Source: Serratia sarumanii
Lineage (GTDB): Bacteria; Pseudomonadota; Gammaproteobacteria; Enterobacterales; Enterobacteriaceae
Length of the DNA stretch: 64,000 nucleotides
NCBI RefSeq assembly: GCF_029962605.1
Contig: NZ_CP124750.1
Location: 2,914,001-2,978,000, forward strand
Direction of reading: 5' to 3'
The translations under genes were made by a program, and so were the position numbers. Shown piece after piece: positions 2,500 to 36,356 of this stretch; position 1 is the stretch's first letter, and every line of letters begins with the position of its first letter. The notes under the pieces are model-generated. The model did not search any database and was not told the DNA's origin. It worked only from the letters and a program-made list of their open reading frames with translations.

Positions 2500-2637
2500 T
2501 AACTGTTATATGAAAAAGTAAAATAACTGTCACTATTATAGTCACTGTACTCCGTGCTTAACTTAACGCCAAGTATTTCACATAAAAATGACAGCTATAC
2601 TCAAGAGGTTAATTTATGTTCAACCCTAGGAGGCGCC
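2500..2637. promoter_or_regulatory. divergent control region between MocR-type gene and cioA
   Basis: A 138-bp AT-rich gap between divergent genes. It holds three direct ACTGT copies at 2502-2506, 2526-2530 and 2544-2548. The last two flank the small inverted repeat ACTATTATAGT (2532-2542). MocR/GntR proteins often bind such spaced direct repeats, so this is a candidate operator. The assignment rests on pattern only. Confidence 0.4.
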
Positions 2638-4038
2638 ATGCTGGGTCTTGATGCACTGGAACTCGCCAGAATACAGTTCGCCTTCACCGTGTCTTTCCAT
2701 ATCATCTTCCCCGCCATCACCATCGGTTTAGCCAGCTATCTGGCGGTGCTGGAAGGATTATGGTTGAAAACGCACAATGAAGCCTACCGTGAGCTTTACC
2801 ATTTCTGGTCAAAGATTTTCGCCGTCAACTTCGGCATGGGCGTGGTGTCCGGGCTGGTGATGGCCTATCAGTTCGGCACCAACTGGAGCTTCTTCTCCGA
2901 GTTCGCCGGCAGCATTACCGGGCCGCTGCTGACCTATGAAGTGCTGACCGCCTTCTTCCTCGAAGCCGGTTTCCTCGGCGTAATGCTGTTCGGCTGGAAC
3001 CGCGTCGGCCCCGGCCTGCACTTCTTCGCCACCTGCATGGTGGCGCTCGGCACGCTGATCTCCACCTTCTGGATCCTGGCTTCCAACAGCTGGATGCAGA
3101 CGCCACAGGGGCATGAAATCATCAACGGCCAGGTGGTACCGGTCGACTGGCTGAAGGTGATCTTCAACCCGTCCTTCCCGTACCGCCTGCTGCACATGTC
3201 CACCGCCGCCTTCCTCTCCTCGGCGTTCTTCGTCGGCGCCTCCGCCGCCTGGCATCTGCTGCGCGGCCGCGATACCCCGGCGATGCGCAAAATGCTGTCG
3301 ATGGCGATGTGGATGGCGCTGATCGTCGCGCCGGTGCAGGCGCTGATCGGCGATGCGCATGGCCTGAATACGCTGAAACACCAGCCGGCGAAGATCGCCG
3401 CCATCGAAGGCCATTGGGAAAACCCGCCGGGCGAAGCCACGCCGCTGATCCTGGTCGGCTGGCCGGACATGGAGCGCGAAGAGACCCGCTTCAAGCTGGA
3501 AGTACCGTACCTCGGCAGCCTGATCCTGACCCACAGCCTGACCGAACAGGTGCCGGCGCTCAAATCCTTCCCGCCGGAAGATCGCCCCAACTCCACCGTG
3601 GTGTTCTGGTCGTTCCGCATCATGGTCGGGCTGGGCATGCTGATGATCCTGGCCGGGGTGTGGAGCCTGTGGCTGCGCTGGCGCGGCGGGCTGTATCAGT
3701 CGCGTCCGTTCCTGTACTTCATCCTGTGGATGGGCCCTTCCGGGCTGCTGGCGCTGCTGGCGGGCTGGTTCACCACCGAGATCGGCCGCCAGCCGTGGGT
3801 GGTGTACGGCCTGCTGCGCACCAAGGACGCGGTCTCCGCGCACGGCGATCTGCACATGAGCATCAGCCTGCTGGCGTTCATCATCGTCTACTGCTCGGTG
3901 TTCGGCGTGGGCTATTCCTACATGATGCGCCTGATCCGCAAAGGGCCGCAGCCGCATGAACACCAAGAAGACAATACCGAGGGCCGGCCGGCGCGTCCGC
4001 TGTCCGCGGTCAACGACACTCTGGACGACAGGAGCTGA
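2638..4038 (+). CDS. cioA: cytochrome bd-type quinol oxidase subunit I (CIO type)
   Basis: A 466-residue CydA-family subunit carrying the hemes and quinol site of a bd-type terminal oxidase in the inner membrane. The N-terminal ARIQFAFTVSFHIIFPA segment has the conserved haem-ligand His at residue 21, and nine or so membrane segments follow. It is clearly shorter than E. coli CydA (about 520 residues), which fits the short-Q-loop cyanide-insensitive branch rather than true CydA. An earlier in-frame ATG at 2554 exists, but AGGAGG six bases before the ATG at 2638 decides the start. It is followed two bases later by subunit II. The symbol cioA marks the subgroup and is my inference. Confidence 0.9.
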   Translation: MLGLDALELARIQFAFTVSFHIIFPAITIGLASYLAVLEGLWLKTHNEAYRELYHFWSKIFAVNFGMGVVSGLVMAYQFGTNWSFFSEFAGSITGPLLTYEVLTAFFLEAGFLGVMLFGWNRVGPGLHFFATCMVALGTLISTFWILASNSWMQTPQGHEIINGQVVPVDWLKVIFNPSFPYRLLHMSTAAFLSSAFFVGASAAWHLLRGRDTPAMRKMLSMAMWMALIVAPVQALIGDAHGLNTLKHQPAKIAAIEGHWENPPGEATPLILVGWPDMEREETRFKLEVPYLGSLILTHSLTEQVPALKSFPPEDRPNSTVVFWSFRIMVGLGMLMILAGVWSLWLRWRGGLYQSRPFLYFILWMGPSGLLALLAGWFTTEIGRQPWVVYGLLRTKDAVSAHGDLHMSISLLAFIIVYCSVFGVGYSYMMRLIRKGPQPHEHQEDNTEGRPARPLSAVNDTLDDRS

Positions 4039-4040
4039 AC

Positions 4041-5048
4041 ATGGGCATCGATCTTCCGCTGATTTGGTTTGTGATCATCGTGTTCAGCACCATGATGTAC
4101 GTGGTGATGGACGGTTTCGACCTGGGCATCGGCATCCTGTTTCCGTGGGTGAAAGAGAGCGGCGACCGCGATCTGATGATGAACACCGTCGCCCCGGTGT
4201 GGGACGGCAATGAGACCTGGCTGGTGCTGGGCGGTGCGGCGCTGTTCGGCGCTTTCCCGCTGGCCTACTCGGTGATCCTCGACGCGCTGGCGATCCCGCT
4301 GACGCTGATGCTGATCGGGCTGATTTTCCGCGGCGTGGCCTTCGAGTTTCGCTTCAAGGCGACGCCGGAGAAACGCCATATCTGGGACAAGGCGTTCATC
4401 TGGGGCTCAATCTTCGCCACCTTCAGCCAGGGGGTGGTGGTGGGCGCCGTGATCAACGGCTTCCCGGTCGAAGGCCGCACCTACGCCGGCGGCGCACTGG
4501 ACTGGCTGACGCCGTTCGCGCTGTTCTGCGGGCTGGGACTGGTGGTGACCTACGCCCTGCTAGGCTGCACCTGGCTGGTGATGAAAACCGCCGGTGACCT
4601 GCAGGCGCGCATGTATCATCTGGCGACGCCGCTGCTGGCGATCCTGTTGCTGGTGCTGGCCGCGGTCAGTATCTGGACGCCGATCGCGCATCCGGAAATC
4701 GCCGCCCGCTGGTTTACGCTGCCGAATTTGTTCTGGCTGCTGCCGGTGCCGGTGCTGGTGCTGCTCAGCGCCTGGGGAATTCAACGCGGGGTGAAACGCG
4801 GCGCGCACTACTCGCCGTTCATGCTGACGCTGCTGCTGGTGTTCCTCGGCCTGAGCGGGCTTGGCATCAGCATCTGGCCGCACCTGATCCCGCCGGCCAT
4901 CAGCCTTTGGGACGCCGCCGCCCCGCCGCAGAGCCTCGGCTTTATGCTGGTGGGCGCGCTGTTCATCATCCCGATCATTCTGGTCTACACCTTCTGGAGC
5001 TACTACGTGTTCCGCGGCAAGATCAGCCATGAACACGGCTATCACTGA
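4041..5048 (+). CDS. cioB: cytochrome bd-type quinol oxidase subunit II
   Basis: A 335-residue CydB-family membrane subunit that pairs with the preceding subunit I. The N-terminal segment with VVMDGFDLGIGIL and the WDGNETWLVLGGAALF stretch are hallmark CydB sequence. About eight hydrophobic helices can be seen. It begins two bases after the subunit I stop, inside one operon, and is followed 14 bases later by the small DUF2474-like gene. The complex would oxidise ubiquinol and reduce oxygen to water, giving respiration at low oxygen or in the presence of cyanide or NO. Family membership is secure; the CIO rather than CydB name rests on the partner subunit. Confidence 0.92.
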   Translation: MGIDLPLIWFVIIVFSTMMYVVMDGFDLGIGILFPWVKESGDRDLMMNTVAPVWDGNETWLVLGGAALFGAFPLAYSVILDALAIPLTLMLIGLIFRGVAFEFRFKATPEKRHIWDKAFIWGSIFATFSQGVVVGAVINGFPVEGRTYAGGALDWLTPFALFCGLGLVVTYALLGCTWLVMKTAGDLQARMYHLATPLLAILLLVLAAVSIWTPIAHPEIAARWFTLPNLFWLLPVPVLVLLSAWGIQRGVKRGAHYSPFMLTLLLVFLGLSGLGISIWPHLIPPAISLWDAAAPPQSLGFMLVGALFIIPIILVYTFWSYYVFRGKISHEHGYH

Positions 5049-5224: not shown

Positions 5225-5491
5225 TTATCTGGCCGCGCTGGTGGGAAAGTAGAAGGAAACCACCAGCGTGACCAGCGGCAAGGCGCCGATCTTCACCAGT
5301 TCGAACGTTTGTCCGAGCGCTTCATTTTTGTCCCAGTACGCGTGGGCGGCGAATACGCCCACGCTGACCGCGAATATCCCGCACAATACCTGGCGCGCCA
5401 AGCGCAGCCACTCCATTTCGTCGAAGACCAACACCTGTTCCAGATAAACCTGGCTGGCCTCATCGCGCAGATTACGGCTTTCGATGTTCAT
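5225..5491 (-). CDS. small two-helix membrane protein paired with RHH gene, function unknown
   Basis: An 88-residue protein with a polar acidic N-terminus (NIESRNLRDEASQVYLEQVLVFDEMEW) and two hydrophobic stretches at about 33-52 and 66-84. I do not recognise a family. Its ATG overlaps the stop of the upstream ribbon-helix-helix gene (ATGA), so the two are translated together. A DNA-binding RHH protein followed by a small membrane protein recalls toxin-antitoxin modules, with this protein as possible toxin, but nothing in the sequence proves toxicity. It could equally be a small membrane protein under the RHH protein's control. It ends 10 bases from the stop of the oxidase operon, convergently. 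Confidence 0.65.
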   Translation of the reverse strand: MNIESRNLRDEASQVYLEQVLVFDEMEWLRLARQVLCGIFAVSVGVFAAHAYWDKNEALGQTFELVKIGALPLVTLVVSFYFPTSAAR

Positions 5492-5712
5492 GGGAAGATC
5501 TCCACGACCCGGCCCACCGCTTCAAGCTGTTCACCCTTCTCCCGTACAATGCCAAGAGAAGTACCATCCTGTTTCATCCAGTACTTATCGGCAAGGGTAA
5601 TCAGTGCAAACGCCATTTTGATTACCTCGGTTTTTTCCATCCCATGACGCCGGGCAATATCGTTCAGATCATCATCAATTTTGTTCGATAACCGAATCGG
5701 CAAGCTGCGCAT
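5488..5712 (-). CDS. ribbon-helix-helix DNA-binding protein (antitoxin-like)
   Basis: A 74-residue protein. The N-terminus MRSLPIRLSNKIDDDLNDIARRHGMEKTEVIKMAF has the beta-strand, helix, helix pattern of MetJ/Arc-type ribbon-helix-helix domains. The C-terminal 35 residues would be a partner-binding or effector part. AGGAGG lies six bases before the ATG, inside a pair of nested inverted repeats, which suggests autoregulation. It is coupled by ATGA overlap to the small membrane protein gene. Known RHH proteins of this size are mostly antitoxins or small repressors; which one applies here is open. Confidence 0.7.
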   Translation of the reverse strand: MRSLPIRLSNKIDDDLNDIARRHGMEKTEVIKMAFALITLADKYWMKQDGTSLGIVREKGEQLEAVGRVVEIFP

Positions 5713-5713
5713 A

Positions 5714-5746
5714 GTCCACCTCCTGTGGACGTTGATTCACAGGAGG
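5714..5746. promoter_or_regulatory. nested inverted repeats covering the RHH gene's ribosome binding site
   Basis: Two perfect inverted repeats share sequence. One is GTCCAC (5714-5719) with GTGGAC (5725-5730), spacer five. The other is CCTCCTGTG (5719-5727) with CACAGGAGG (5738-5746), spacer ten. The minus-strand AGGAGG ribosome binding site of the RHH gene lies inside both. The site can act as a protein operator in DNA or as an mRNA hairpin that hides the ribosome binding site. Confidence 0.6.
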
Positions 5747-5818
5747 AAAGTCTACTGGAAGGGCAACTATCGTTCAATTAGTGAACTGCGTAACGCCTCG
5801 CACAATCCGCATGCAACG

Positions 5819-6904
5819 CTAATGTGGTTTGCGCCCCATCGCGCTGAGGAAGCGCTGCTGCAGGCGCAACAGCTCCCCCAGCTCCAGCAGGCGGTAGTCG
5901 ATGCCGAAACGCGGCGCTACCTCGCCGATGATGCGGCTCAGCGCCGGGTAATGGCGGTGGCTCCAGTGCGGGAACAGATGATGCGTCAAATGCAGGTTCG
6001 CCCCGCCGAGCCAGTATCCCAGCCAACGCGGCCGGGTCAGCCAGTCGAAGGTCGTGGCGAACACATGGTGATACCAGCCGTGCGGCATCGCACCCTGCGC
6101 CGGCGCCTGGTAAAAATTGGCCTTGGCCCAGTGGGTGCCGATGATCAACATCACGAACAGCAATGAAGAAAGCATCTGGCTCAGCAAATAGACCAGCAGA
6201 ATTTGCCCGATGCCGATGGCCGGCGGCAGCAGCCAGCACGGGATCGCCAGCGCCAGCAGCAGGTGCGCCGCCTTGCCCGCCAGAAACTCGCACCAGCCGC
6301 GCACGCCCTGCTGTGCCATGCGCGCCGCCACCCGGGTGCGTCCCGCCCGATCCAGCCAGTCGAACAGCCAGATGTAGTACGGGAACGTCAGCGCCGCCAC
6401 CAGCGGCCAATAGTAACGCTGGGCGCGCATAAAGGGCCGCCAGCGCTGGAACGGCGTTTGCCGCAGCACGCCGTTGGCGTCGATGTCGGGGTCGTAATGT
6501 TCGATATTGTTATGGGCATGGTGGAACAGCACGTGCCGCACGCGCCAACAGTCGGGATCCAGCCCCAACGGGACGCTCACCAGGGCGTTCAGCCAGCGGT
6601 TGGCCCAGGGCCGACGGAAAAACGCGTTATGCGAGGCATCGTGCACCACGTTCACCGTCAGGAACATGCCGATAAAGATAAAACCGAAGTAGCAAGCGAA
6701 AAACGCCCAGCCGTTTTGCTGCTGCAGGCTCAGCCCGTAACACAGGCCGCACAGCGCCAGCAGCAGCGCCACCTTTGCCAGCATGCCGCCGTCGGCGAAG
6801 CGGTGATCGCCGTTGGCCGCCAGATAATGCTGGGCGGCCTGCATCAGCGCGCGATGCAGGCCGCCGTCGTCGCGCCGATAGGCTAACGGACGCAGCGCTT
6901 TCAT
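5819..6904 (-). CDS. membrane fatty-acid desaturase 2 of the lipid cluster
   Basis: A 361-residue integral membrane di-iron desaturase. The three His boxes are visible: HDASH, HVLFHH and HLTHHLFPHWSHRH. Hydrophobic helices lie between them. The reading frame stays open upstream, but that part overlaps the preceding desaturase in another frame. The ATG at 6904 overlaps that gene's stop as ATGA and begins MKALRPLAYRR, which matches its paralogue's start. It should insert a double bond or hydroxyl into an acyl chain of a lipid or acyl thioester. It is the last of eight coupled genes; it and the preceding gene look like a tandem duplication that has diverged. Confidence 0.85.
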   Translation of the reverse strand: MKALRPLAYRRDDGGLHRALMQAAQHYLAANGDHRFADGGMLAKVALLLALCGLCYGLSLQQQNGWAFFACYFGFIFIGMFLTVNVVHDASHNAFFRRPWANRWLNALVSVPLGLDPDCWRVRHVLFHHAHNNIEHYDPDIDANGVLRQTPFQRWRPFMRAQRYYWPLVAALTFPYYIWLFDWLDRAGRTRVAARMAQQGVRGWCEFLAGKAAHLLLALAIPCWLLPPAIGIGQILLVYLLSQMLSSLLFVMLIIGTHWAKANFYQAPAQGAMPHGWYHHVFATTFDWLTRPRWLGYWLGGANLHLTHHLFPHWSHRHYPALSRIIGEVAPRFGIDYRLLELGELLRLQQRFLSAMGRKPH

Positions 6905-7983
6905 GGCTGCCCCATAAGGCGCAAGAAGCGCTGTTGCTGCGCCAGCAGTTCGCGATAGCCGATGCAGCGATATGCCATGCCGTGCCGCTGCGCCACTTCC
7001 GCCAGCGCGGCGGCCAGCGCCGGATAGTGGCGGTGATTCCAGCCGGGAAACAGGTGGTGGGTCAGGTGATAGTTCAGCCCGCCGGTCAGGTGCTCCAGCC
7101 CGCGCGGCTCGGGCTGCCAGTCGCAGGCGGTGGCGAAATTGTGCCGGTACCAACCGTGCGGCATGCTGTCGCCCGCCGGCGCCGGGTAAAACTCGGCCTG
7201 CGCCCAGTGGGTGCCCAGCAGCAGGAACACCACCAGCAGCGAGGCAAACATCTGGCTGAGCGCGTAAGCCAACAGCACCCAGCCCCAACCGATGCCGTGC
7301 AGGTGGCACAGGATCAGCGGCACCACCAGCACCAGCGCCACATGAAGCAATTTGCACAGCACGAACAGCGTCCAACCGCCGCGCCCCGCCAGCACGCGTT
7401 TTTCCCGCAGCGGCGTTTTATCGAGCCGATCGGACCAATCGAAAATCCACGCGATGTAGGGCAGCGAGAGCGCGGCGATCAGCGGCCAGTACAGATGCTG
7501 ATAGCGCATATGCGGCCGCCAGCGCTGGAACGGCGTCTGGCGGAAAAAGCCGTTCTCTTCGGTGTCCAGATCGTAGTGTTCGACGTTGGCGTAAACGTGG
7601 TGGTAATCCACGTGCCGCGTGCGCCAATAGTCCGGATCGACGCCCAGCGGCAGCGTCACCAGCCGCCCCACCAGGCGATTGGCCCAGGGCGCGCGCAAGA
7701 AGGCGTTATGCGAAGCATCGTGGTTGACGTTGACGTTGAGCAGCATGCCCATGGCCACGAACAGGAAATAGCAGAGGAAAAACGCCCAGGGCTGATGCTG
7801 CAGCAGGCTCAGGGCATAAAACCCGACGCACAGCGCCAGCAACAGTGCGGCCTTGGCCAATCGCGCGGCATCGGCATAGCGATGATCGCCCGCCAGGCAG
7901 GCGTGCGCCGCGCGCTTGAGATCGCGGTGAAACGCCTGCTCGCCATCGGCGGGAAAACGCAGCGGCGGCAATAAGTCAGCCAT
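6901..7983 (-). CDS. membrane fatty-acid desaturase 1 of the lipid cluster
   Basis: A 360-residue membrane desaturase. His boxes are HDASH (residues 88-92), HVDYHH (124-129) and a C-terminal HLTHHLFPGWNHRH. Two hydrophobic pairs flank the first box. The ATG at 7983 overlaps the end of the sterol-desaturase-type gene by eight bases; earlier in-frame codons lie in that gene and are ignored. It closely resembles the next gene in layout, including the PWANR and YWR/CWR stretches, so the pair probably arose by duplication. It likely acts on an acyl chain made or loaded by the KAS III/ligase genes upstream. The regiochemistry cannot be read from the sequence. Confidence 0.85.
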   Translation of the reverse strand: MADLLPPLRFPADGEQAFHRDLKRAAHACLAGDHRYADAARLAKAALLLALCVGFYALSLLQHQPWAFFLCYFLFVAMGMLLNVNVNHDASHNAFLRAPWANRLVGRLVTLPLGVDPDYWRTRHVDYHHVYANVEHYDLDTEENGFFRQTPFQRWRPHMRYQHLYWPLIAALSLPYIAWIFDWSDRLDKTPLREKRVLAGRGGWTLFVLCKLLHVALVLVVPLILCHLHGIGWGWVLLAYALSQMFASLLVVFLLLGTHWAQAEFYPAPAGDSMPHGWYRHNFATACDWQPEPRGLEHLTGGLNYHLTHHLFPGWNHRHYPALAAALAEVAQRHGMAYRCIGYRELLAQQQRFLRLMGQP

Positions 7984-9109
7984 GCGGTTCCTCCACGGCG
8001 GCCGGCGCGGCCACTCGCCCCCAGCCCAGCGCCACGCACAGGGCATGCAGCGCCACGGCGGCCATGGCGATATGCCAATAGCGCTGCGGCCAGCCAAGAT
8101 AGCCGATAAACAGCAGCGGCATACCCAGCGCGATCAGCAGCCAGACGGCGCTCGCCCACGGCCGCCCTTCCGTCATGCCACCCAGCGCTACCGAGCCCAA
8201 CGCCAGCAGCACCAGCAGCGCCATTTGCGGCCAGCTGATGTCGCCGTAGCCGTAACCGTATTGGTAGACGTAACCGACCACCAACGAGAACAGCAGCATG
8301 GCGCCGCTGAAGACGCTGAGCGCCGAACGGCGGTCGCGCGGCCGGCCCGGCGCCGGGCGCCATGCCAGGCGCAAATAGCGCAGAAACGGCAGATTGCTCG
8401 CCCAGAACGGGTTGGCGGACGGCCGATCGCCGCTGACGCCGTAGCTGAACGGTGTGGTCGGCAACGCCGGGCAGAACGTGCCGAACAGCTTGTCCCAGAA
8501 GATAAAGCTGCCGCCGAAGTTCTTATTGGAATACGCCATGTCCTTGACGTGGTGCACCCGGTGGTGCGCCGGCGTGACCAGGATTTTTTCCAGCACGCCC
8601 AGCTTCGGCGTCAGCGCATTGTGGTTGAACAGCTGAATGCTGTAGTGAAAAATCGACACCGTGACGAACACCGACAGCGGCACGCCCGCCAGCGCCAGCA
8701 GCAAAAAGAACGGGATCGATGTCAACGACGAATACCAGGAGTTGCGCACCCCCAGCGACAGGTTGAAGTGCTCCCCCTGGTGGTGCACCACGTGTACCGC
8801 CCACAGCACGCGGAAGCGGTGATGCAGACGGTGCAGCCAGTAGAAACCGAAGTCCCACGCCAGCAGGGCGAACAGCCACATCAGCAGCGGCGGCCAGGCG
8901 TCCAGCAGCCCCAGACTGAAATGCGCGGCCACGTAGCCGTAGCAGGTGATCTCCAGCCCGCGGAACAGCCACAGCATGATATGGCCGGAGTTCAGGTTAA
9001 ACACCAGATCGTGCCAGTTGACCGGCTCACGGCGCCCCCACTGCAGCGCCACCGCCTCGGCCACCACGATGAACAGCATGAACACTATCGGCAACGCCAG
9101 ATCGCTCAT
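7976..9109 (-). CDS. sterol desaturase / fatty-acid hydroxylase family protein
   Basis: A 377-residue membrane protein of the fatty-acid hydroxylase superfamily. The di-iron His motifs are HRLHH (93-97), HVVHH (106-110), His163 and HHRVHH (182-187). The catalytic half is followed by a C-terminal region of about 110 residues with three to four more hydrophobic segments. That extension is seen in bacterial members but its role is unclear. It sits between the PAP2 gene and the two desaturases, joined by short overlaps. The family includes C4-sterol oxidase, ceramide hydroxylases and alkylglycerol monooxygenase. A hydroxylase acting on a long-chain lipid fits the cluster, but the substrate is unknown. 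Confidence 0.85.
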   Translation of the reverse strand: MSDLALPIVFMLFIVVAEAVALQWGRREPVNWHDLVFNLNSGHIMLWLFRGLEITCYGYVAAHFSLGLLDAWPPLLMWLFALLAWDFGFYWLHRLHHRFRVLWAVHVVHHQGEHFNLSLGVRNSWYSSLTSIPFFLLLALAGVPLSVFVTVSIFHYSIQLFNHNALTPKLGVLEKILVTPAHHRVHHVKDMAYSNKNFGGSFIFWDKLFGTFCPALPTTPFSYGVSGDRPSANPFWASNLPFLRYLRLAWRPAPGRPRDRRSALSVFSGAMLLFSLVVGYVYQYGYGYGDISWPQMALLVLLALGSVALGGMTEGRPWASAVWLLIALGMPLLFIGYLGWPQRYWHIAMAAVALHALCVALGWGRVAAPAAVEEPHG

Positions 9110-9723
9110 CCCATTTCTCCTTTAACCACCCGCCGGCGCAGGGTCTTGATGCGCAGGGCCAACCACCCGGCGCACAGCGCCAGCAGCGCGCCGCCGGCCA
9201 GATCGACAAACAAATGGCGGCGCAGCTGCAGAATGGAGAACGCGATCGCCACGCCCCACAGCATCCACAGCGCCGTCCGCACTTTGCGCTCGCCGTCGCT
9301 CAACGCCCACACCGCCAGCACCGTCAGCGCCATATGCAACGAAGGCAGGCAGTTCTGCGGCGAATCCACCTGGGTTAACGCCGCCAGCAGCTGCGCGCTG
9401 ATCCCAACGCCATCGTTCCGCGGATAGGCCATGGTGGTCGGCCACAGCAGGTAAACTGCCCCGGCGCCCAGCGCCGTCAGCTGCATCGCCAGCGTCAGCC
9501 ATTTGATTCGCTGCAGCGGCGCCAGCAAATAGCCCGCCGGGACGATGAGGAAGAACGACAGGTAAAGCCAAATGGCCGCCGGGCTGAACGGGATCGCCCG
9601 ATCAAGCGCCGACGGCGGCAACAAAGTTCCCGTCCCCTGCAGGCGATCGGTCAGGCTATACACCACCCCGACCGTCCCCCAGCCGAGCAACATGTGCCCT
9701 AGCCTGAACAGCGTATTTTTCAT
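9106..9723 (-). CDS. PAP2 / inositolphosphotransferase-type membrane phosphatase
   Basis: A 205-residue protein with five to six hydrophobic segments. The PAP2-like catalytic motifs are CLPSLHMA in the middle and RRHLFVDLAGG near the end, supplying two His and an Asp. The spacing resembles the AUR1/inositol-phosphoceramide-synthase subgroup. The frame runs much further upstream, but the ATG at 9723 overlaps the ligase stop by four bases and begins a normal membrane segment. It likely removes phosphate from, or exchanges a headgroup on, a lipid phosphate at the outer face of the inner membrane. Its place in the operon implies a phospholipid-like intermediate or product. Confidence 0.8.
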   Translation of the reverse strand: MKNTLFRLGHMLLGWGTVGVVYSLTDRLQGTGTLLPPSALDRAIPFSPAAIWLYLSFFLIVPAGYLLAPLQRIKWLTLAMQLTALGAGAVYLLWPTTMAYPRNDGVGISAQLLAALTQVDSPQNCLPSLHMALTVLAVWALSDGERKVRTALWMLWGVAIAFSILQLRRHLFVDLAGGALLALCAGWLALRIKTLRRRVVKGEMG

Positions 9724-11006
9724 GCTTCCTCCGCCTGGCGCACGATGCGCCGCCGCTTGCGATCGAACTGCGGCAGCACCGCCTGCGCCGTCAACCGCCA
9801 TTCGAGCCGATCGGTGGCGATGCCCTGGCGAGCGAACAGCGCGATCAGCTGCGCCTGGCAGTGCGCCAACGCCGCCGGGCTGCAATCGGCGATCAACTCC
9901 AGCCGGTGCTCGCCGCGCTGGATCAGGCGGTAATCGCTGGTCAGCGGCAGCGCATTGGCGATCGTCCGGCTGCAGGCATCGGCGAACACCGCCTGCGGTT
10001 GCCGCTGCGCATCGGGCAGCATCAGCTGATCGTCGCGCCGCCCTTCGATACGCGCAATCGCCCGCGTCGGCTGCCCGCACGGGCAGGGTTCCTTGCGCAG
10101 CACCAGCACATCGTCCAGCCGATAACGCACGATCGGCTGCGTGCTGCGGGTGAAATCAGTGATCAGCGGCGTGAAACGCAGTTCGTCGATCCACTGCGGT
10201 TCGATATGCAAAAACTCTTCGTTCAGATGCAGGGTGCCGTGCGCGCAGGTCGCGGCCAGGAACCCCTCGGTGGCCTGATACACTTCGCCGACCGCCGGAA
10301 ACACCTGCATCAGCAGGCGGCGATCCTGTTCTTCCAATACCTCGGCGACCGAAATCACTTTTTTGACCGGCAGCTTCACCTGCCCGGCCAGCACCGCCAG
10401 CGCCAGGGCGCGCAGCACCTGCGCCGGCGCCACGATGATGCTGGGCGCCTGCCGTTCCAGCGCGGGCAGATGCTCGCTGAACGGCGCCAGCAAATCGTAA
10501 AACGCCAGGCTCAGCCAACGGTTGTTTACGCTGTGATAGAGATTATTGTCCGCCCGCAGAAACAGCGCGACACGCTCACCGGCCAGCAGCCCGTCCGGCA
10601 GCATCTTCGCCAGCATGCCGCCGGCCCACACCTGCTGTTCGCGCGGGCTGACGACAAACACGCCGCGCTGCCCAGAGGTGCCGGACGACAACCCGACGCT
10701 GTAGCGCCCGATCTTTGGCGTGAAATCGCGATCCGCCTCGCTGCGCTGCGCGCAGGCCAGCACCGCCTCCCGGCTCAGCCCGGCGGTATTCATCCGGTCG
10801 AACTGCGCCATCATCAGCGCCTTGTCCATCTGCGGCCATTCGGCGAACGGCCGGCGGCTGAAACACTGAAAATAGGGGCTCTTGCTCAGCACCCGGCGGG
10901 CAAAGCCCGCGAGCTGCCGGGCCTGATGCGCCTCCAGCGCCGCACGATCGCCAAAGCGCAGGCGCCGGGCGCGGAAGTAGTGCCAAAGGGTCATGAAGGG
11001 GATCAC
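9720..11006 (-). CDS. adenylate-forming ligase, PaaK / coenzyme F390 synthetase type
   Basis: About 428 residues. The SSGTSGQRG phosphate-binding loop at roughly 107-115 is the signature of adenylate-forming enzymes. The YQATEGF and YRLDD segments and a Cys pair in EPCPCGQPT resemble PaaK/F390-synthetase-like members. It should activate a carboxylic acid as an acyl-AMP and pass it to a thiol or other acceptor. I chose the GTG at 11006: it has GAGGGG five bases upstream and overlaps the previous stop as GTGA. The ATG at 10994 is the alternative but is too far from that site. In this operon it may activate or load the acyl product of KAS III. Confidence 0.8.
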   Translation of the reverse strand: MIPFMTLWHYFRARRLRFGDRAALEAHQARQLAGFARRVLSKSPYFQCFSRRPFAEWPQMDKALMMAQFDRMNTAGLSREAVLACAQRSEADRDFTPKIGRYSVGLSSGTSGQRGVFVVSPREQQVWAGGMLAKMLPDGLLAGERVALFLRADNNLYHSVNNRWLSLAFYDLLAPFSEHLPALERQAPSIIVAPAQVLRALALAVLAGQVKLPVKKVISVAEVLEEQDRRLLMQVFPAVGEVYQATEGFLAATCAHGTLHLNEEFLHIEPQWIDELRFTPLITDFTRSTQPIVRYRLDDVLVLRKEPCPCGQPTRAIARIEGRRDDQLMLPDAQRQPQAVFADACSRTIANALPLTSDYRLIQRGEHRLELIADCSPAALAHCQAQLIALFARQGIATDRLEWRLTAQAVLPQFDRKRRRIVRQAEEA

Positions 11007-11809
11007 AGGTCCCCCTCGTGGCACAGCAAAATGTTGACCTGGCCGCCCGCCCACAGTTGGTTAAGCCGCTCCAGCGTGCGGGTGTACGCCGCCGCATCGT
11101 CCATCACCAGATTGGCCAGGCGTGAGGGTCCGCGCAGCGTCTGGTAGCTCTGCGGCGACCAGGCGGCGTCGCTGGCCAACAGCGTCCAGCCGGCGTCGGT
11201 GAGGATAAAGGCGCCGATATGGCCGGCCGCATGCCCCGGCAGCGGCACCAGCACGATTTGTCCTTCACTGCCCGGCAGCGCGTAACCGCGATCGAACGGC
11301 GCCAGCAGTGCGGGCAACGCCACCGAGGGAAAAGACTCCATAAACTGCAGGCGGCTCTCGAAATCCGCCGGGATCAGGCCGGGAATAAAGGCGCGCTTGA
11401 GCGCCGCGAAACCGCGCAGCCCGCGGGTTTGCTGCCAGCCTTCGCCGCAGCAAATAAAATCGAGGCGGCTGAAATCCTGCAGCCCGGCGATGTGATCCGC
11501 GTGAAAGTGCGAGACGATCAGCGCCTGGATGTCGCCTTCGGCGTAACCGGCTTCGCGCAGCTGATGCGCCAACGACTCGGCGGGATCGAAATAGACCGGC
11601 GTCATGCGGCGGTAAAGGCTGAACAGCCCCGACTGCGTGTGCTGCTGAAAATAATGCGCATAGCCGGTATCCCACAGCCAGCGGCGCTCTCCCACCTCCA
11701 GCAGATAGGCGCGCGCCGGGAATTTACACACCCGGAACCCGGCGCCGCGCAGCGCCATGCAGCCGATATGCGTGCAATAGCCCACTTCAAATACGGTGAC
11801 CTTAGCCAT
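11003..11809 (-). CDS. metallo-beta-lactamase-fold hydrolase
   Basis: A 268-residue MBL-fold enzyme. The metal motif HFHADH is at 101-106, followed by the later GHAAGHIGAF His and the C-terminal LLASDAAW Asp. This pattern fits two-metal hydrolases such as lactonases and thioesterase-like MBL proteins. It starts with an ATG overlapping the SDR gene by eight bases. Within the cluster it could open a lactone or cleave an acyl thioester or ester. A homoserine-lactonase annotation would be tempting but nothing in context supports quorum quenching. Confidence 0.85.
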   Translation of the reverse strand: MAKVTVFEVGYCTHIGCMALRGAGFRVCKFPARAYLLEVGERRWLWDTGYAHYFQQHTQSGLFSLYRRMTPVYFDPAESLAHQLREAGYAEGDIQALIVSHFHADHIAGLQDFSRLDFICCGEGWQQTRGLRGFAALKRAFIPGLIPADFESRLQFMESFPSVALPALLAPFDRGYALPGSEGQIVLVPLPGHAAGHIGAFILTDAGWTLLASDAAWSPQSYQTLRGPSRLANLVMDDAAAYTRTLERLNQLWAGGQVNILLCHEGDL

Positions 11810-12818
11810 GCTGTATGCCTCCTTGCTGCCGCAGCCACTCGCCGGTCAGGCGGATCCCCTCTTCCATCGAGTAACGCGGCCGATAGCCCAGCTCTTCGAT
11901 CGCGCGGGTCTGGCTCAGGGTCATGTCAAAATGCACCGCCGCCACGCTGTAGCGCGTCAGCAGCGGTTCCTTGCCGCTCAGCGTTGCCCACAGCTCCATG
12001 CCGCCGGCCAGCGCCTGCAGCAGCGGGTAAGGCACGGCCTGCAGCCGGTAACGCAGCCCCAGCTCCTGGCGCAGCAGTGCATCCAGCATCTCCGCCAGCC
12101 GCTGCGGTTGGTGGTTGGTGATGTTATACACGGCGCCGGACGGCAATCCGCGCTGCCGGCTGGCCAGCTCCATGGCGTGCACCACGTTGGGAGCAAAGGT
12201 CAGATCCAGCAGCGCTTGCCCGCCGCCGGGCAGCCGCAGCACGCCGCGATCGCGTTCGAGCTGCTGCAACAGCCGCGGCACGATCACCCGATCGTGCGGG
12301 CCAAACAGGCCGCGCGGCCGCAGCATAATATAGGTGGTTTGCGGGTAGATTTTCGCCTGCGCCAACAACCGCTGCTCGGCGGCGTGCTTGCTGGCGGCAT
12401 AGTGATTGGCGAAGCGCCGGGCGCGATAACCCTCATCAAGATCGTAATGCGGCTGAAAATCGAAGTAGATTGCCGGCGTGGAGATATGCACGAAGCGCCG
12501 CACGCCGCAGCGCCCGGCCGCCTCCGCCAGTTTCTCCGTCGCCGCGGCGTTGATGCGGTGAAATTCCGCTTTGCTGCCCCAGGGCGAAGACTTGGCCGCA
12601 CAGTGCCATACCCACTCGCAGTCGGTCACCAGCTCCCGGCACTGCTGCGGCGTGGCCTGCGCCAGATCGCGCGAGTAAAATTCAGCGCCCATCTGCCGCA
12701 ACGCTTCGCCGGCCCGCTCATCGCGGCCGGTGGCGCGCACCTGATGCCCGGCCTCCAGCAACCACTGCGCCGCGTTGCGCCCCAGCCCGCTGGTCGCCCC
12801 GGTCACCAGCACCCTCAT
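11802..12818 (-). CDS. NAD(P)-dependent extended SDR, 3-beta-HSD/OleD-like
   Basis: A 338-residue extended short-chain dehydrogenase. The Rossmann motif TGATSGLG is at residues 6-13 and the active-site YAASK at 140-144. The middle and C-terminal regions resemble NAD-dependent epimerase/3-beta-hydroxysteroid dehydrogenase proteins. Its ATG overlaps the KAS III stop as ATGA. A KAS III followed directly by such an SDR is the arrangement of OleA and OleD in bacterial olefin synthesis, where the SDR reduces the 2-alkyl-3-keto acid made by OleA. That parallel is an inference; the family call is firm. Confidence 0.85.
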   Translation of the reverse strand: MRVLVTGATSGLGRNAAQWLLEAGHQVRATGRDERAGEALRQMGAEFYSRDLAQATPQQCRELVTDCEWVWHCAAKSSPWGSKAEFHRINAAATEKLAEAAGRCGVRRFVHISTPAIYFDFQPHYDLDEGYRARRFANHYAASKHAAEQRLLAQAKIYPQTTYIMLRPRGLFGPHDRVIVPRLLQQLERDRGVLRLPGGGQALLDLTFAPNVVHAMELASRQRGLPSGAVYNITNHQPQRLAEMLDALLRQELGLRYRLQAVPYPLLQALAGGMELWATLSGKEPLLTRYSVAAVHFDMTLSQTRAIEELGYRPRYSMEEGIRLTGEWLRQQGGIQHG

Positions 12819-13822
12819 GGCAGCAACACCATGCCGGCCAGCGCCAGCCCGGCGGCGGTGCCGATCAGCATCACCGGCTGGCCGGGGTTGAAGCGCCCGC
12901 TGGTCACGGCGGCATGCAGCGCGGTCGGGATAGAGGCCGCCACCTGGTTGCCGTGATGGCGGTAGATGTCCACCAGCGCCTCGCTGGAGACGTGCAGCCG
13001 TTTGCGCATATGTTCGAGCGACAAATGGCTGGCCTGGTGCGGCACCACGGTGGCGATCTGCGCCAGGGTCAAGCCGCTGGCGCTCAGCAGCCGGTCGAGG
13101 TAGTCCTCAATCAGCGCCGACGCCTGACGGAACAGCGGTTTGCCCTGCATATGAAACAGGAAGTCTTGCTCGCACATGCCGGCGCGCGGGTTGCGGCGCG
13201 TGCCGCCGGCGCGGATCTCGCACAGTTCGCTGCCGGCGGGATAGGTTTCCACCAGGCTGGCGAGGATGCCGCCGGTGCCGTCGCCGCGCTCCACGATGGC
13301 GCAGGCGGCGCCGTCGCCGAAAATCAGCGACGACTCTTCGTGCTGCCAGTCGATGCCGCGCGAAGCGAGATCCGCCGAGACGATGGCGATACGCCGATAC
13401 GTCCCGGCGTTCAACAGCCCCGCCGCCACCTGCAGCGCAGAGATAAAGCTGACGCAGCTGCTGTTGATGTCGAAGCCCGGCGTACCCGGCGCCAATCCGG
13501 CGATCTTGAGAATATGCGCGGCAGAGCACGGCAGCGCCTGTACCGCTATCGCCGAGGCGGAGATCAGCAGGTCAATCGAAGCGGCCGGAATAGTGCTGCG
13601 GGCCAGCGCGTCTTGCAGTGCGGCGGCGGCGAGCTCGGCCTGGCTGGCGTCGTCGTCGGCGTGATAGCGGTAAACGATGCCCGAGCGCTTTTCAACGTAG
13701 CCGGCCGGTTTCCCCAGGCGGGCATCGAGCGTAGAGGAGGCCACGCGGTTGGGCGGCAACGCGGCCCCGGTGGCGATGATTTTCAGAGGCAACAGCTCGG
13801 GTGAGCGACATTGTGTGGTCAT
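12815..13822 (-). CDS. beta-ketoacyl synthase III (FabH/OleA-like), first gene of lipid cluster
   Basis: A 335-residue thiolase-fold condensing enzyme with the KAS III triad: Cys123 in NSSCVSF, His262 in VPHQAS and Asn292 in HHGNQVAAS. The N-terminal LKIIATGAALPPNRV is typical. It would condense two acyl groups or an acyl-CoA with a malonyl unit. Because it heads an operon of SDR, ligase and desaturases, it is unlikely to be the housekeeping FabH, which sits with other fab genes. The ATG at 13822 has only a weak ribosome binding site. A perfect 16-base palindrome lies about 140 bases upstream. The choice between FabH-like and OleA-like chemistry needs the acyl-pocket residues compared in an alignment. 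Confidence 0.87.
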   Translation of the reverse strand: MTTQCRSPELLPLKIIATGAALPPNRVASSTLDARLGKPAGYVEKRSGIVYRYHADDDASQAELAAAALQDALARSTIPAASIDLLISASAIAVQALPCSAAHILKIAGLAPGTPGFDINSSCVSFISALQVAAGLLNAGTYRRIAIVSADLASRGIDWQHEESSLIFGDGAACAIVERGDGTGGILASLVETYPAGSELCEIRAGGTRRNPRAGMCEQDFLFHMQGKPLFRQASALIEDYLDRLLSASGLTLAQIATVVPHQASHLSLEHMRKRLHVSSEALVDIYRHHGNQVAASIPTALHAAVTSGRFNPGQPVMLIGTAAGLALAGMVLLP

Positions 13823-13957
13823 TATTGTTATTGATTAACCTGACTATCCATAAAGCGATTCTCCCGCGCGGCGCGAAGGCCATGCGGATCATCCCCGGTT
13901 TTTATGTCCCAAAAGGCCTTTCATCAAGGCGCTATCTCTTGTTATCGGCTACCACGG

Positions 13958-13973
13958 GCCGACGTCCGTCGGC
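13958..13973. promoter_or_regulatory. 16-bp palindrome upstream of lipid cluster, candidate operator
   Basis: GCCGACG (13958-13964) and CGTCGGC (13967-13973) form a perfect inverted repeat with a two-base spacer. It lies in the 276-bp gap between narI and the KAS III gene, about 140 bases before the latter. Size and symmetry fit a dimeric repressor site. No regulator gene lies next to the cluster. Confidence 0.35.
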
Positions 13974-14059
13974 GCAAGCATAAGCGTAACATGACTGAGA
14001 TAGTAAGTTTACGACAAGGCGGCGAGAATGGGCAGACGGCGGGGGAATTATCGGAATAG

Positions 14060-14083
14060 CGCCGCCGCTGGCGATCGGCGGCG
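14060..14083 (-). terminator. GC-rich hairpin after narI
   Basis: CGCCGCCG (14060-14067) and CGGCGGCG (14076-14083) pair around an eight-base loop, 15 bases past the narI stop. No clear U tract follows on the minus strand, so termination may be partial or the hairpin may protect the narGHJI message. Confidence 0.4.
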
Positions 14084-14098
14084 GCGGCGGGGTCAGGC

Positions 14099-14776
14099 TC
14101 AGCGGCGGTTGCGCACCAGCTGGTAACGGCGGGTCAGATACTCTACCGGCGCACTCCAGATATGCACCAGGCGGCAGAACGGGAACAGCACGAACAGCGT
14201 CATGCCCAGCACCATGTGCAGTTTGAAGATAATCGCCACCCCTTCCAGGTGCGCAGAGGCGCCGGCGTGGAACGTCACCACCGCCTGCGCCCAGGCCACC
14301 AGCTTCATCATTTCGCTGCCGTCCATATGCTGGGCGGAGAACGGAATGGTCAGCAGGCCGAGGCACACCTGCACCACCAGCAACGTCAGGATTATGATGT
14401 CGGCGAAGCTGCTGGTGGCGCGCACCCGCGGATTGGTCAACCGGCGCTTCAGCAACAGCGCACCGCCGATTAGCGTCATCAGGCCGCAGGCGCCGCCGGC
14501 GATCATCGCCAGCTTCTGCTTCACGTCGATCGGCAGGAAAGCCTCATACATCCAGTGTGGCGTCAGCATGCCGAGGAAATGGCCCGCGAAGATGCCGATA
14601 ATGCCGATGTGAAACAGGTTGGACGCCAGCCGCATGCCCTTTTTATCCAGCATCTGGCTGGAGCCGGCGCGCCAGCTGTATTGCCCGTAGTCGTAACGCA
14701 ACCAGCTGCCGATCAGGAATACCGCGCCGGCCAGATAAGGGTAAATATCGAAGAAGAACTGATTCAAAAATTGCAT
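14099..14776 (-). CDS. narI: respiratory nitrate reductase A, gamma subunit
   Basis: A 225-residue cytochrome b subunit, the usual NarI length, starting [17 protein letters not shown] with a periplasmic N-terminus and five membrane helices. Histidines in [13 protein letters not shown] and in [14 protein letters not shown] are the expected ligands to two b haems. It takes electrons from quinol at the periplasmic side and passes them to NarH. The frame is open further upstream, but the ATG at 14776 sits two bases after the narJ stop. It is the last gene of narGHJI. Confidence 0.97.
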
Positions 14777-33584: not shown

Positions 33585-34547
33585 TTATCTATCAGAAAAC
33601 TCATGTTTAATGGTTCTTTCGATTGCCGAATCAAGTTCAACCGGCGCCACGAAATTATTTTTCACATTACTTTTAAATTGCGTTCTGGCGCAGAATTTCT
33701 GCACTCTGACGCGGCTGATTGGGAATTTTTTACGACTTATTTTACTCACGACATCCAATGCGGTCGCCCCGCATATGCCCACCACATAAGGAATGCGAAT
33801 CGTCTTATTTTCTCTGCCCAGCGAGGAGGAAATAACGTCGACCAATTGATTCATCGTAAAATCCGGTTTATCGACGTAGTTGCTGACCTGATAACTTGAC
33901 TGCTGGTCCAACGCATGTTCCAGCCGCGCGGCAATATTTTCAACGTAAGCCATCGACTTCATATTATTGCCGCTGCCAATCATCACGAATCGGCCGCTGG
34001 CGATCTGGCGAAACAGGTTATACACATTGCCCCGGTTGCCTTCACCGAATACCACCGTCGGGCGGATGATGGTCAATTTGTTTGCGCTATCCGCCTTGCG
34101 CCACGCTTCATAAACGTATTCCGCTTCGAGCTTGGACTTGCCGTAATGGTTGAAGGGATCGAAACGTCCCCCTTCATCGGTTTCCTGCTCGACGAACCCG
34201 TAAACGGCCACCGAGGAAGTGAAAATGATTTGGCGGATATTCAAGGCGGAGGCGGTCATGCAGACATGGCGTGCGCCTTCGACATTGACCTGATAATAGA
34301 GCGAAATAGGATCGACGTTGTCCTGATGCTCCGCCGCCAGATTAATGATGGCGTCACAGCCCGCCAGCGGTTCTTGCAGGGTCTGGGGCTGTGTCACGTC
34401 GCCATACTGATAGAGCGCCGGAAAATGCGCGCTGGGTTGCTTGTCAACGATGACCAACGTCAGATCATCGCGCGCACTGAGACGTTTTGCCAGGCGTGTT
34501 CCGATAAAACCGGAACCCCCGATAATAGCTACTTTACGCTTATCCAT
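33585..34547 (-). CDS. gnu: Gnu-like epimerase (GlcNAc-P-P-undecaprenol 4-epimerase)
   Basis: A 320-residue extended SDR. GGSGFIG is the NAD motif at residues 10-16 and YGKSK the active-site motif. The segments LAAEHQDNVDPISLYYQVNVEG, RPTVVFGEGNRGNVYNLFRQIASG and MKSMAYVENI closely recall E. coli O157 Gnu (Z3206). Gnu converts lipid-linked GlcNAc to GalNAc. Its position before wecA supports a GalNAc-primed repeat. It lies outside the JUMPstart-led transcript by about 120 bases and is visibly AT-richer than the nar genes. UDP-sugar epimerase activity is the alternative. Confidence 0.8.
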   Translation of the reverse strand: MDKRKVAIIGGSGFIGTRLAKRLSARDDLTLVIVDKQPSAHFPALYQYGDVTQPQTLQEPLAGCDAIINLAAEHQDNVDPISLYYQVNVEGARHVCMTASALNIRQIIFTSSVAVYGFVEQETDEGGRFDPFNHYGKSKLEAEYVYEAWRKADSANKLTIIRPTVVFGEGNRGNVYNLFRQIASGRFVMIGSGNNMKSMAYVENIAARLEHALDQQSSYQVSNYVDKPDFTMNQLVDVISSSLGRENKTIRIPYVVGICGATALDVVSKISRKKFPISRVRVQKFCARTQFKSNVKNNFVAPVELDSAIERTIKHEFSDR

Positions 34548-34727
34548 AATTTGTCACTCAGCAGGTTCTCATTATTCCTGTCACCGCGATGGAAACAGGA
34601 CGCTAATATGCGTTAGGTAATGAGTTCCAGACTGGACAAATCGAACCTGGCTTTCAAATAACAAATAATGAAATAAAAGATTTCATCAAATGTAAAATTA
34701 TCGCTAAAGATAAAACCTCATTCAGCA

Positions 34728-35627
34728 CTAATTTTTAACATCGTAAGCAACTTGATATTGCAAGGTTTTGTTCGGCAATATGAGATTAATCCGACCTTTA
34801 CCCGGCGTAGAAGAAGTCTCATATTTTACCGGCAACTTAAGCTGCCCTTGCTTAGGGTCGACACATTCGATGGTCGCCTGCTCCATGCTCTCGCCCTGGT
34901 ACAGGCAGAGCAGGGTTTGCGGGCTGTTGGTATGGGGATTATTCAGCGTCAGCGTCAACACCACGCGCGTGTTGTTCTGAATATCATTGATCACCGGTGG
35001 ACGAGTTTGGTTGCCGAGCACATATGAAAAATGTGAAATAACCAGCAAAGAAGCGAATACCGTCAGGTATTTCACTACGCGGCTGGCGGGCATGCTGAAA
35101 AAGCGCCGCGCCGTCGTCGATTTTTTTTCACGCGTGGGTTCATGAGCTGACTCTACCGTTGCAACAGGCGCAGCCACCAGCGTCGATTTACGCGGCTTAT
35201 CTATTTTTTCATCGTTTGTTTCAGACGACTCACTTTCATTTTCAGAAAGTTCCGCTTGAATATCAACGCCAATATTTTCATCGCCATTTAATATATCATC
35301 ATCAGCGTAGCCCTCATCCTCGGATATAAAGTAAAAAGCCGCTTGATTTTCCACCTTGTAACCCAAACGGGGAATGGTTCTGATAAGCGTATGTTCCGTG
35401 TCGCTAATTTTTTGGCGAATAGATTTAATTGTTTGATTTATCGTTGAATCTGAGCAGTAAGTTCCTTTCCAGATATTTTCTATAATTTCCGTTCGTGTAA
35501 CCAGCTCTGGCGATCTGGCGACAAGCAGCGAAAGAATTTGATACTCCTTCCAACGCAGACGAAATTTCTCCCCGGCAGGAGTCAGAACATCGAGATTCCT
35601 AATCTTTATTCTTTTATCAAGATTCAC
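34728..35627 (-). CDS. membrane-bound winged-helix regulator (CadC/ToxR-like)
   Basis: About 299 residues. Residues 1-100 are an OmpR/PhoB-type winged helix (RWKEYQILSLLVARSPELVTRTEIIENIW, then TIRTIPRLGYKVE). An acidic linker (ENESESSETNDEK) is followed by a Lys-rich stretch, one membrane helix (YLTVFASLLVISHFSYVLG) and a periplasmic domain of about 100 residues. This is the CadC/ToxR layout: an inner-membrane one-component regulator sensing periplasmic signals. I chose GTG at 35627, with AAGGA eight bases upstream; a TTG at 35678 has no such site. It is AT-rich and sits at the head of the polysaccharide cluster, which it may regulate. Confidence 0.82.
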   Translation of the reverse strand: MNLDKRIKIRNLDVLTPAGEKFRLRWKEYQILSLLVARSPELVTRTEIIENIWKGTYCSDSTINQTIKSIRQKISDTEHTLIRTIPRLGYKVENQAAFYFISEDEGYADDDILNGDENIGVDIQAELSENESESSETNDEKIDKPRKSTLVAAPVATVESAHEPTREKKSTTARRFFSMPASRVVKYLTVFASLLVISHFSYVLGNQTRPPVINDIQNNTRVVLTLTLNNPHTNSPQTLLCLYQGESMEQATIECVDPKQGQLKLPVKYETSSTPGKGRINLILPNKTLQYQVAYDVKN

Positions 35628-36356
35628 TTTTAATTTCCTTAGCGTGCCTGTCCTGCACACTTTGTATAGAAATATCAAAAAATGTTCAAGAAATTAAATG
35701 TAAACTCAACAGGTTGCATTCATCGGATATTGGCCTTTATAAAAATTTTCTGATTTCATTTTTTACATTAGGCCTTATTAAGGATGTTCCGTTTACCCAA
35801 ATGACTCTTTTTCCCTGCTGGCAACATGGATTTCTTTCATGGCTACCGTAAAATTCAAATGGTCACCTCATTGATTTAAAAAGGAAAAACTAGCGGCGTT
35901 GTTAGATTGTTAATCGAATAAAATTGTGAAATTTCATTCTTATCCGTGAATTCATTGTGTTTTTCCACCTAATCTGATTGTCAGATAGACTACAAAAAGC
36001 CGGAAAAAACAGAATGAGAGTTATCTGATTTAACCCCGTTACACATTCCACTCAGTGCGTGCAGCATCTATGACAAAACCCTATTACTGATTTTATAACA
36101 ATCGCACTAATTATGCCTTACCGTCCCGGAAATTTCATTTAATCTGCGGAAAGATATTAACGCCTTAATGTAAGAATACTCTCAATAAAACGAAAAAAAC
36201 GTACAAATAATATAATCCGTTTTGGCGAAAATATTCCCACATTGAGAGATAGTGCTATAAAAAAAGAAAAAAACGGCAAGCGGAGATGAGAATTTTACCT
36301 AAAGACAGAAAATTTCACTGAGGAGGCGAGGAGAGATGACTCGGAATGAGCGAAAT
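35628..36356. other. long AT-rich intergenic region upstream of the membrane regulator
   Basis: Roughly 730 bases with no convincing gene on either strand. It is markedly AT-rich compared with the rest of the window, with many A and T tracts, and resembles H-NS-bound DNA at the edge of an acquired locus. It must hold the promoter of the regulator gene. I see no clear -35/-10 pair that stands out among many AT matches and no repeat of note. Confidence 0.5.

Follow-up and report, generated by a model that had tools for sequence, protein, structure and literature searches.

Gene organization of the locus

The window analysed here, a stretch of 64,000 nucleotides from Serratia sarumanii (contig NZ_CP124750.1, positions 2,914,001 to 2,978,000), carries eight intact genes, all on the minus strand, running from position 13822 down to 5819 in the order ketosynthase III (KAS III), short-chain dehydrogenase/reductase (SDR), metallo-β-lactamase-fold (MBL) hydrolase, adenylate-forming ligase, PAP2 membrane protein, FA_hydroxylase and two FA_desaturases. 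The original prediction had placed these eight families on one strand at this locus, and profile matches confirmed all of them. None of the genes contains an internal stop, and catalytic motifs were found in all eight proteins, listed here in gene order with their lengths in amino acids (aa), followed by the upstream gap.

12815..13822, minus strand, KAS III, 335 aa, PRK07204-like ketosynthase; Cys123, His262, Asn292
11802..12818, minus strand, extended SDR, 338 aa, OleD/3-beta-HSD-like (Epimerase/3Beta_HSD); Tyr140xxxLys144
11003..11809, minus strand, MBL-fold hydrolase (Lactamase_B), 268 aa, lactonase branch; H101, H103, D105, H106, H193, D214, H264
9720..11006, minus strand, TIGR02304 'F390 synthetase-related' adenylate-forming ligase, 428 aa, GTG start; profile over cut-off
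9106..9723, minus strand, PAP2_3/PAP2 membrane protein, 205 aa, putative headgroup transferase or lipid phosphatase; PSLH and RHxxxD motifs
7976..9109, minus strand, FA_hydroxylase (sterol desaturase superfamily) membrane oxygenase, 377 aa; PF04116, HxxHH boxes
6901..7983, minus strand, FA_desaturase 1, 360 aa; PF00487, His boxes HDASH, HVDYHH and HLTHH
5819..6904, minus strand, FA_desaturase 2, 361 aa; 56% identical to desaturase 1
13823..14098, minus strand, gap of 276 bases between narI and the KAS III gene; promoter-like matches at chance level

The raw open reading frames (ORFs) of the ligase, PAP2 and both desaturases begin too far upstream, and these four starts were moved by hand to the overlaps; with the starts so corrected, the seven junctions overlap in series by 4, 8, 4, 4, 4, 8 and 4 bases, in agreement with the overlap of 4 to 8 bases predicted for every junction. 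A GGAGG-like stretch precedes five of the seven downstream genes, the SDR and desaturase 2 genes not clearly having one. The predicted position beside narI also held: narI (TIGR00351, minus strand) ends at 14099, and the KAS III gene starts 276 bases further on. A promoter scan of positions 5300-14300 returned three promoter-like sites against 1.7 expected (standard deviation 1.3), which is within chance, and a terminator scan of the operon region returned nothing above chance.

Conservation of the core and exchange of the module

A search of a genome collection with the ligase profile yielded 360 relatives, of which the best 80 loci were used for counting; 12 loci of about 4.3 kb each (L001-L012) were too short and were excluded from the counts of core order and module. 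The KAS III, SDR, MBL hydrolase and ligase genes lie on one strand and in the same order in 80/80 loci, and because this order is kept throughout, the core is more than a chance association. The genes beside it vary: PAP2 is present in 63 loci, the hydroxylase in 58, one or two desaturases in 57 (two in 38, one in 19) and a GT21 glycosyltransferase in 16, while the hydroxylase and GT21 occur together in six and the core stands alone in seven. Where the hydroxylase is present, PAP2 accompanies it in 58/58 loci and a desaturase in 57/58, the only hydroxylase locus without a desaturase (L027) being an 8.4-kb contig that stops near that place. Across loci the core has as neighbours PAP2, hydroxylase and desaturases, glycosyltransferases, ATP-grasp with GNAT, a Rieske oxygenase, or a sulfotransferase. 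The operon is thus a four-gene core (KAS III, SDR, MBL hydrolase, ligase) with an exchangeable module and not one fixed set. Of the eight families whose co-occurrence in other genomes the original prediction set as a check, the four of the core stand together in these loci, and the other four are exchangeable.

The overlaps within the core recur as well. A start codon is available exactly at the 4-base overlap in 73 of 74 loci at the KAS-SDR junction and in 74 of 74 at the MBL-ligase junction, counts that are biased towards overlap, since the script picked whichever start came closest to such an overlap and left out the six of 80 loci without a resolved junction. The RefSeq annotation of the Escherichia coli version, which is independent of this procedure, has overlaps of 4, 23, 4, 4, 8 and 14 bases and places its starts at the same 4-base overlap at both of these junctions. 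All eight genes are under purifying selection, as Nei-Gojobori omega values show: 0.085-0.241 in a comparison with Serratia plymuthica that covers all eight, and 0.069-0.149 in one of E. coli with E. whittamii that covers seven.

A tree of the core genes with 97 rows, built with FastTree, labelled by hand and lacking L165-L167, L169, L170 and L201, places approximately 17 module changes, of which nine concern the hydroxylase and three GT21. In this tree L168 is labelled core-only although an ATP-grasp gene adjoins it; both L168 and L200 adjoin ORFs that look Rieske-like by eye.

Occurrence in other bacteria

The core was seen in Pseudomonadota, Bacillota and Fusobacteriota. Among further relatives whose loci were opened, the full core is present in 14/16 (L123, L124, L165-L170 and L196-L201, the core genes of L165-L167 being located by tblastn), and the two loci without it, L125 and L126, score 96 and 90 bits in the tblastn search with the ligase. 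In a plasmid collection 62 records match the ligase, and the core is present in 9/9 of those opened out of 15 listed; the opened loci came from the better-scoring matches, and neither 14/16 nor 9/9 estimates a rate. When a Pseudomonas ligase was used as query in a near search of these plasmids, nothing matched. The composition of the locus differs between groups. Paenibacillus and Pontibacillus have KAS, ATP-grasp, SDR, MBL hydrolase and ligase, with GNAT additionally in Paenibacillus, and in Paraburkholderia ATP-grasp and GNAT are placed after the core; these ATP-grasp and GNAT calls rest on record names, PRK06849 scores below the cut-off and weak Pfam matches. Paracoccus and Ketogulonicigenium have the core with a divergent TetR gene and a sulfotransferase, and Fusobacterium has a classical SDR, GT21, a 215-aa protein, SDR, MBL hydrolase, ligase and KAS.

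Counts in the genus-to-phylum samples include the genome itself. TIGR02304 exceeds its cut-off in 24/60 relatives (24/30 of the same genus and 0/30 of the others), in 2/369 genomes of the class sample and in 7/398 of the phylum sample, and an alignment search with the ligase finds 15/295 genomes of the order sample at E 1e-60. The ligase is therefore patchy and mostly absent.

Two observations concern single genes of these loci. A protein of 194-215 aa without a Pfam match recurs beside GT21 in enterics and Fusobacterium (L047:13433-14017, L132:6220-6867), and by eye it has a Ser, Asp, His pattern like that of alpha/beta-hydrolases. At L124:5982-6991 the core SDR is broken into two frames of 94 and 238 aa, through either a sequencing error or decay.

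Enzymes of the core

The best model of KAS III by far is PRK07204 (335.2 bits, under the cut-off of 402); the KAS in the Paenibacillus version of the core exceeds that cut-off, at 424.9 bits. An identity as the housekeeping FabH was rejected, as the protein stays below both fabH cut-offs (213.2 against 249 bits for PRK09352, and 191.3 against 292.1 bits); the genome's own FabH sits elsewhere (G000:C1:1924803, 477.9 bits). The residues C123, H262 and N292 are invariant in 10/10 aligned rows, including the genome's FabH and an OleA, and by this alignment KAS III has the Cys-His-Asn triad of condensing enzymes. Its best-scoring solved sequences are the α-pyrone ketosynthases 4v2p (166.9 bits), which we take to be MxnB, and CorB (4yuc, 157.4 bits). 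These two belong to polyketide assembly lines, whereas the operon has a four-gene core without an acyl carrier protein.

The SDR has OleD as its best model (151.8 bits against a cut-off of 580) and the sterol-4-alpha-carboxylate 3-dehydrogenase 6jkg as its best match in the Protein Data Bank (PDB; 64.3 bits). An unlinked SDR in the same genome (L189:8039-9304, about G000:C1:1698000) is 48.8% identical to it; this paralogue is probably YbjS and might share a substrate class with the operon SDR.

The OleD score raises the alternative of a divergent ole pathway, in which the MBL hydrolase and the TIGR02304 ligase would stand in for OleB and OleC and the product would be an alkene or a beta-lactone. 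The enzyme classes of OleABCD are indeed those of the core (KAS III, extended SDR, hydrolase and AMP-forming ligase), but the hydrolase of the operon has the MBL fold, and hydroxylase, desaturase and headgroup genes are added. A reference ole locus (L187) was used for comparison; its OleD scores 641.8 bits, over the cut-off, its OleA and OleC are presumed from place and length and not from a profile match, and its OleB was not picked out. The operon KAS is 24% identical to this OleA, and the glutamate that is a functional mark of OleA is replaced by leucine or isoleucine in 8/8 cluster rows (leucine in the operon KAS). In addition, the ligase has no BLASTP match at E 0.001 to the OleC-like ORF, and alkenes are no substrates for the glycosyl- and sulfotransferases found beside the core. 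Membership in the ole pathway was rejected on the missing glutamate, the OleA identity, the SDR score and the unmatched OleC-like ORF, and such a pathway is considered very improbable.

The MBL hydrolase shows the HxHxDH motif, dinuclear metal ligands and a lactonase-like fold, which place it in the lactonase branch with a predicted lactonase activity, and its nearest structural entries are lactonases. With the AiiA and 4-pyridoxolactonase models it does not reach the respective cut-offs. The ligase reaches 577.6 bits with TIGR02304 (cut-off 251.9), is 97% identical to a Serratia marcescens protein, and conserves the S[ST]GTSG loop, E247, D299 and K417 in 9/9 rows. In PMC2649909 an F390-type gene of Desulfotalea comes up in connection with ladderanes, and a table in PMC5467263, from a comparison with PAO1, contains a gene of Pseudomonas aeruginosa ATCC 27853 named 'Coenzyme F390 synthetase', by its name a possible counterpart of the ligase. 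Another possible counterpart by name is the 'Coenzyme F390 synthetase' IYO_RS29540 of Pseudomonas syringae pv. actinidiae, whose Tn5 mutant is among the 91 reduced-virulence mutants in the excerpt of PMC9823363 (score 2, six seedlings counted).

The ligase is distantly PaaK-like, which favours a second alternative, modelled on the alkylquinolone enzymes of the Pseudomonas quinolone signal (PQS): the ligase would make an aryl- or acyl-CoA, KAS III would extend it with malonyl, the MBL hydrolase would hydrolyse the beta-ketoacyl thioester like PqsE, and the SDR would reduce the product. An adenylating ligase, a FabH-like KAS and an MBL-fold hydrolase are common to PqsA, PqsD and PqsE and to the operon, which differs in its lactonase-branch hydrolase, its SDR and its lipid tailoring genes and has no PqsBC-like gene among the eight; PqsE was not among the 50 structural matches listed for the hydrolase. 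We regard this scheme as unlikely, and equally so its corollary that the product is a signal or antibiotic and not a membrane lipid.

Tailoring enzymes

Searches of PDB sequences with the hydroxylase, desaturase 1 and PAP2 gave zero matches. An identity of the hydroxylase as the ornithine-lipid hydroxylase OlsE was rejected (79 bits against a cut-off of 475). The structure model of PAP2 (pLDDT 94.6) aligns over almost its full length with inositol phosphorylceramide (IPC) synthase, Aur1 and SMSr, which take Foldseek ranks 1, 4 and 2, with just one match under E 0.001; the phosphatase LpxE ties with these IPC/sphingomyelin-type synthases by Z and is better in root-mean-square deviation.

This modelled fold suggests a third alternative, in which the core would make a long- or two-chain hydroxylated acceptor without serine palmitoyltransferase, and the tailoring genes would be counterparts of sphingolipid enzymes. 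PAP2_3 would then be a headgroup transferase, GT21 a glucosylceramide synthase, GNAT an N-acyltransferase, joined by the sulfotransferase, with the hydroxylase and desaturases acting on the chain. In enterics and Fusobacterium the core is repeatedly accompanied by GT21, which is the family of the ceramide glucosyltransferases; a sulfotransferase and a PF13480 GNAT stand beside the core in relatives, and PF04116 and PF00487 are present in the window. The two systems are alike in the tailoring families seen across relatives and, tied with LpxE, in the PAP2 fold. The core itself, based on KAS III, is where the sphingolipid pathway differs: no serine palmitoyltransferase is encoded among the eight genes, to which the search was confined, and these also include neither a pyridoxal-phosphate enzyme nor an evident amine donor. 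Besides the tie with LpxE, the GT21 protein of enterics also obtains a score with the model of the hopanoid enzyme HpnI (82.5 bits against a cut-off of 310), PF13480 is matched weakly (23.8 and 24.8 bits against a cut-off of 22), and each tailoring family acts on other lipids too. A ceramide-like product with these enzyme roles is the boldest reading that the data allow, leaning mainly on the predicted PAP2 fold and the families of the alternative modules, and seems rather doubtful. The wider idea of a cross-phylum pathway family, which did not turn up in the literature searched and in which the core would replace serine palmitoyltransferase and swappable modules would add phospho-, sugar, sulfate or amino headgroups, is likewise rather doubtful.

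Proposed pathway

The reading that we prefer, and to which we give a little better than even chances, is a specialised-lipid operon composed of a portable four-gene core and a tailoring module. The reactions that we infer, next to the observed gene content, order, overlaps, conservation, selection, catalytic motifs and fold kinship, would run as follows. KAS III would condense an acyl thioester with an extender unit to a beta-ketoacyl thioester, from which the lactonase-type MBL hydrolase may free the beta-keto acid, or it may open a lactone. The OleD-like SDR would reduce the beta-keto acid to a beta-hydroxy acid, and the TIGR02304 ligase would turn the carboxylate into an acyl-adenylate, so re-activating it for coupling. 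In the version found in the window, the di-iron hydroxylase would then hydroxylate the chain and the two paralogous desaturases would act at two chain positions, both steps needing O2, while PAP2_3 would transfer a phospho-headgroup to the lipid or remove phosphate. The core adjoins genes for phosphate, sugar, sulfate and amide-type chemistry; its product is therefore probably an amphiphile with a group that accepts headgroups.

The modified lipid of the original prediction is in part supported, its reactions staying at the level of a proposal. Its further statement that no characterised pathway with exactly this set is known agrees with the open-licence PubMed Central literature, where none of the papers listed by the searches deals with the gene set, subscription papers and bioRxiv lying outside that search.

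Other features of the window

Beyond the end of the operon and convergent with it lies a terminal oxidase gene pair of the cytochrome bd type (2554-5048, plus strand). The B subunit passes TIGR00203 (cydB) with 179 bits, and the A subunit is far under the PRK15035/PRK15097 cut-offs (294 against 1025); the pair is possibly of a divergent or cyanide-insensitive type. The G+C content falls to 0.445 at 34001-36000, in surroundings of about 0.6, and dips less deeply at 26-28 and 56-58 kb; the stretch 34001-36000 is possibly foreign DNA. The sole tRNA detected in the window, a tRNA-Cys at 58952-59030 (minus strand), has the anticodon aca, unusual for Cys, and could be a pseudogene or a miscall.

The operon in Escherichia coli

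Of 5,426 complete E. coli genomes, 672 match the core over at least 80% of the query. When the seven-gene operon of E. coli itself served as query, 671 records reached this coverage, and identity at the best place was 99% or higher for 570 records, 95-99% for another 100 and 90-95% for two. Carriers among the 60 matches listed include CFT073, Nissle, ATCC 25922, NRG 857C and an O25b:H4-ST131 strain; TIGR02304 finds nothing in the E. coli genome of the control set. Both chromosomes that were opened have the operon flanked by narI on one side and tRNA-Tyr/purU on the other. The ligase also matches two E. coli entries classed as plasmids, NZ_CP141085.1 (L138) and CP054248.1 (H17); the former holds a chromosomal narG-to-hns stretch including the operon, which may reflect integration, fusion or misassembly. 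The genes of the aryl polyene cluster reportedly differ from those of the operon. That cluster, described for uropathogenic E. coli in the excerpt of PMC8253772, is likewise an acyl-chain biosynthetic cluster in this species.

The modular core can also be used to look for related lipids elsewhere among bacteria. For E. coli, the unsaturated fatty acids are taught as products of an O2-independent route only, yet an operon with membrane desaturase and hydroxylase genes is intact and selected in widely held strains, and the question is therefore which lipid it makes. If the rather doubtful ceramide-like reading were true, about one in eight complete E. coli genomes would specify a lipid that is desaturated and hydroxylated with the use of O2 and is missing from textbooks.

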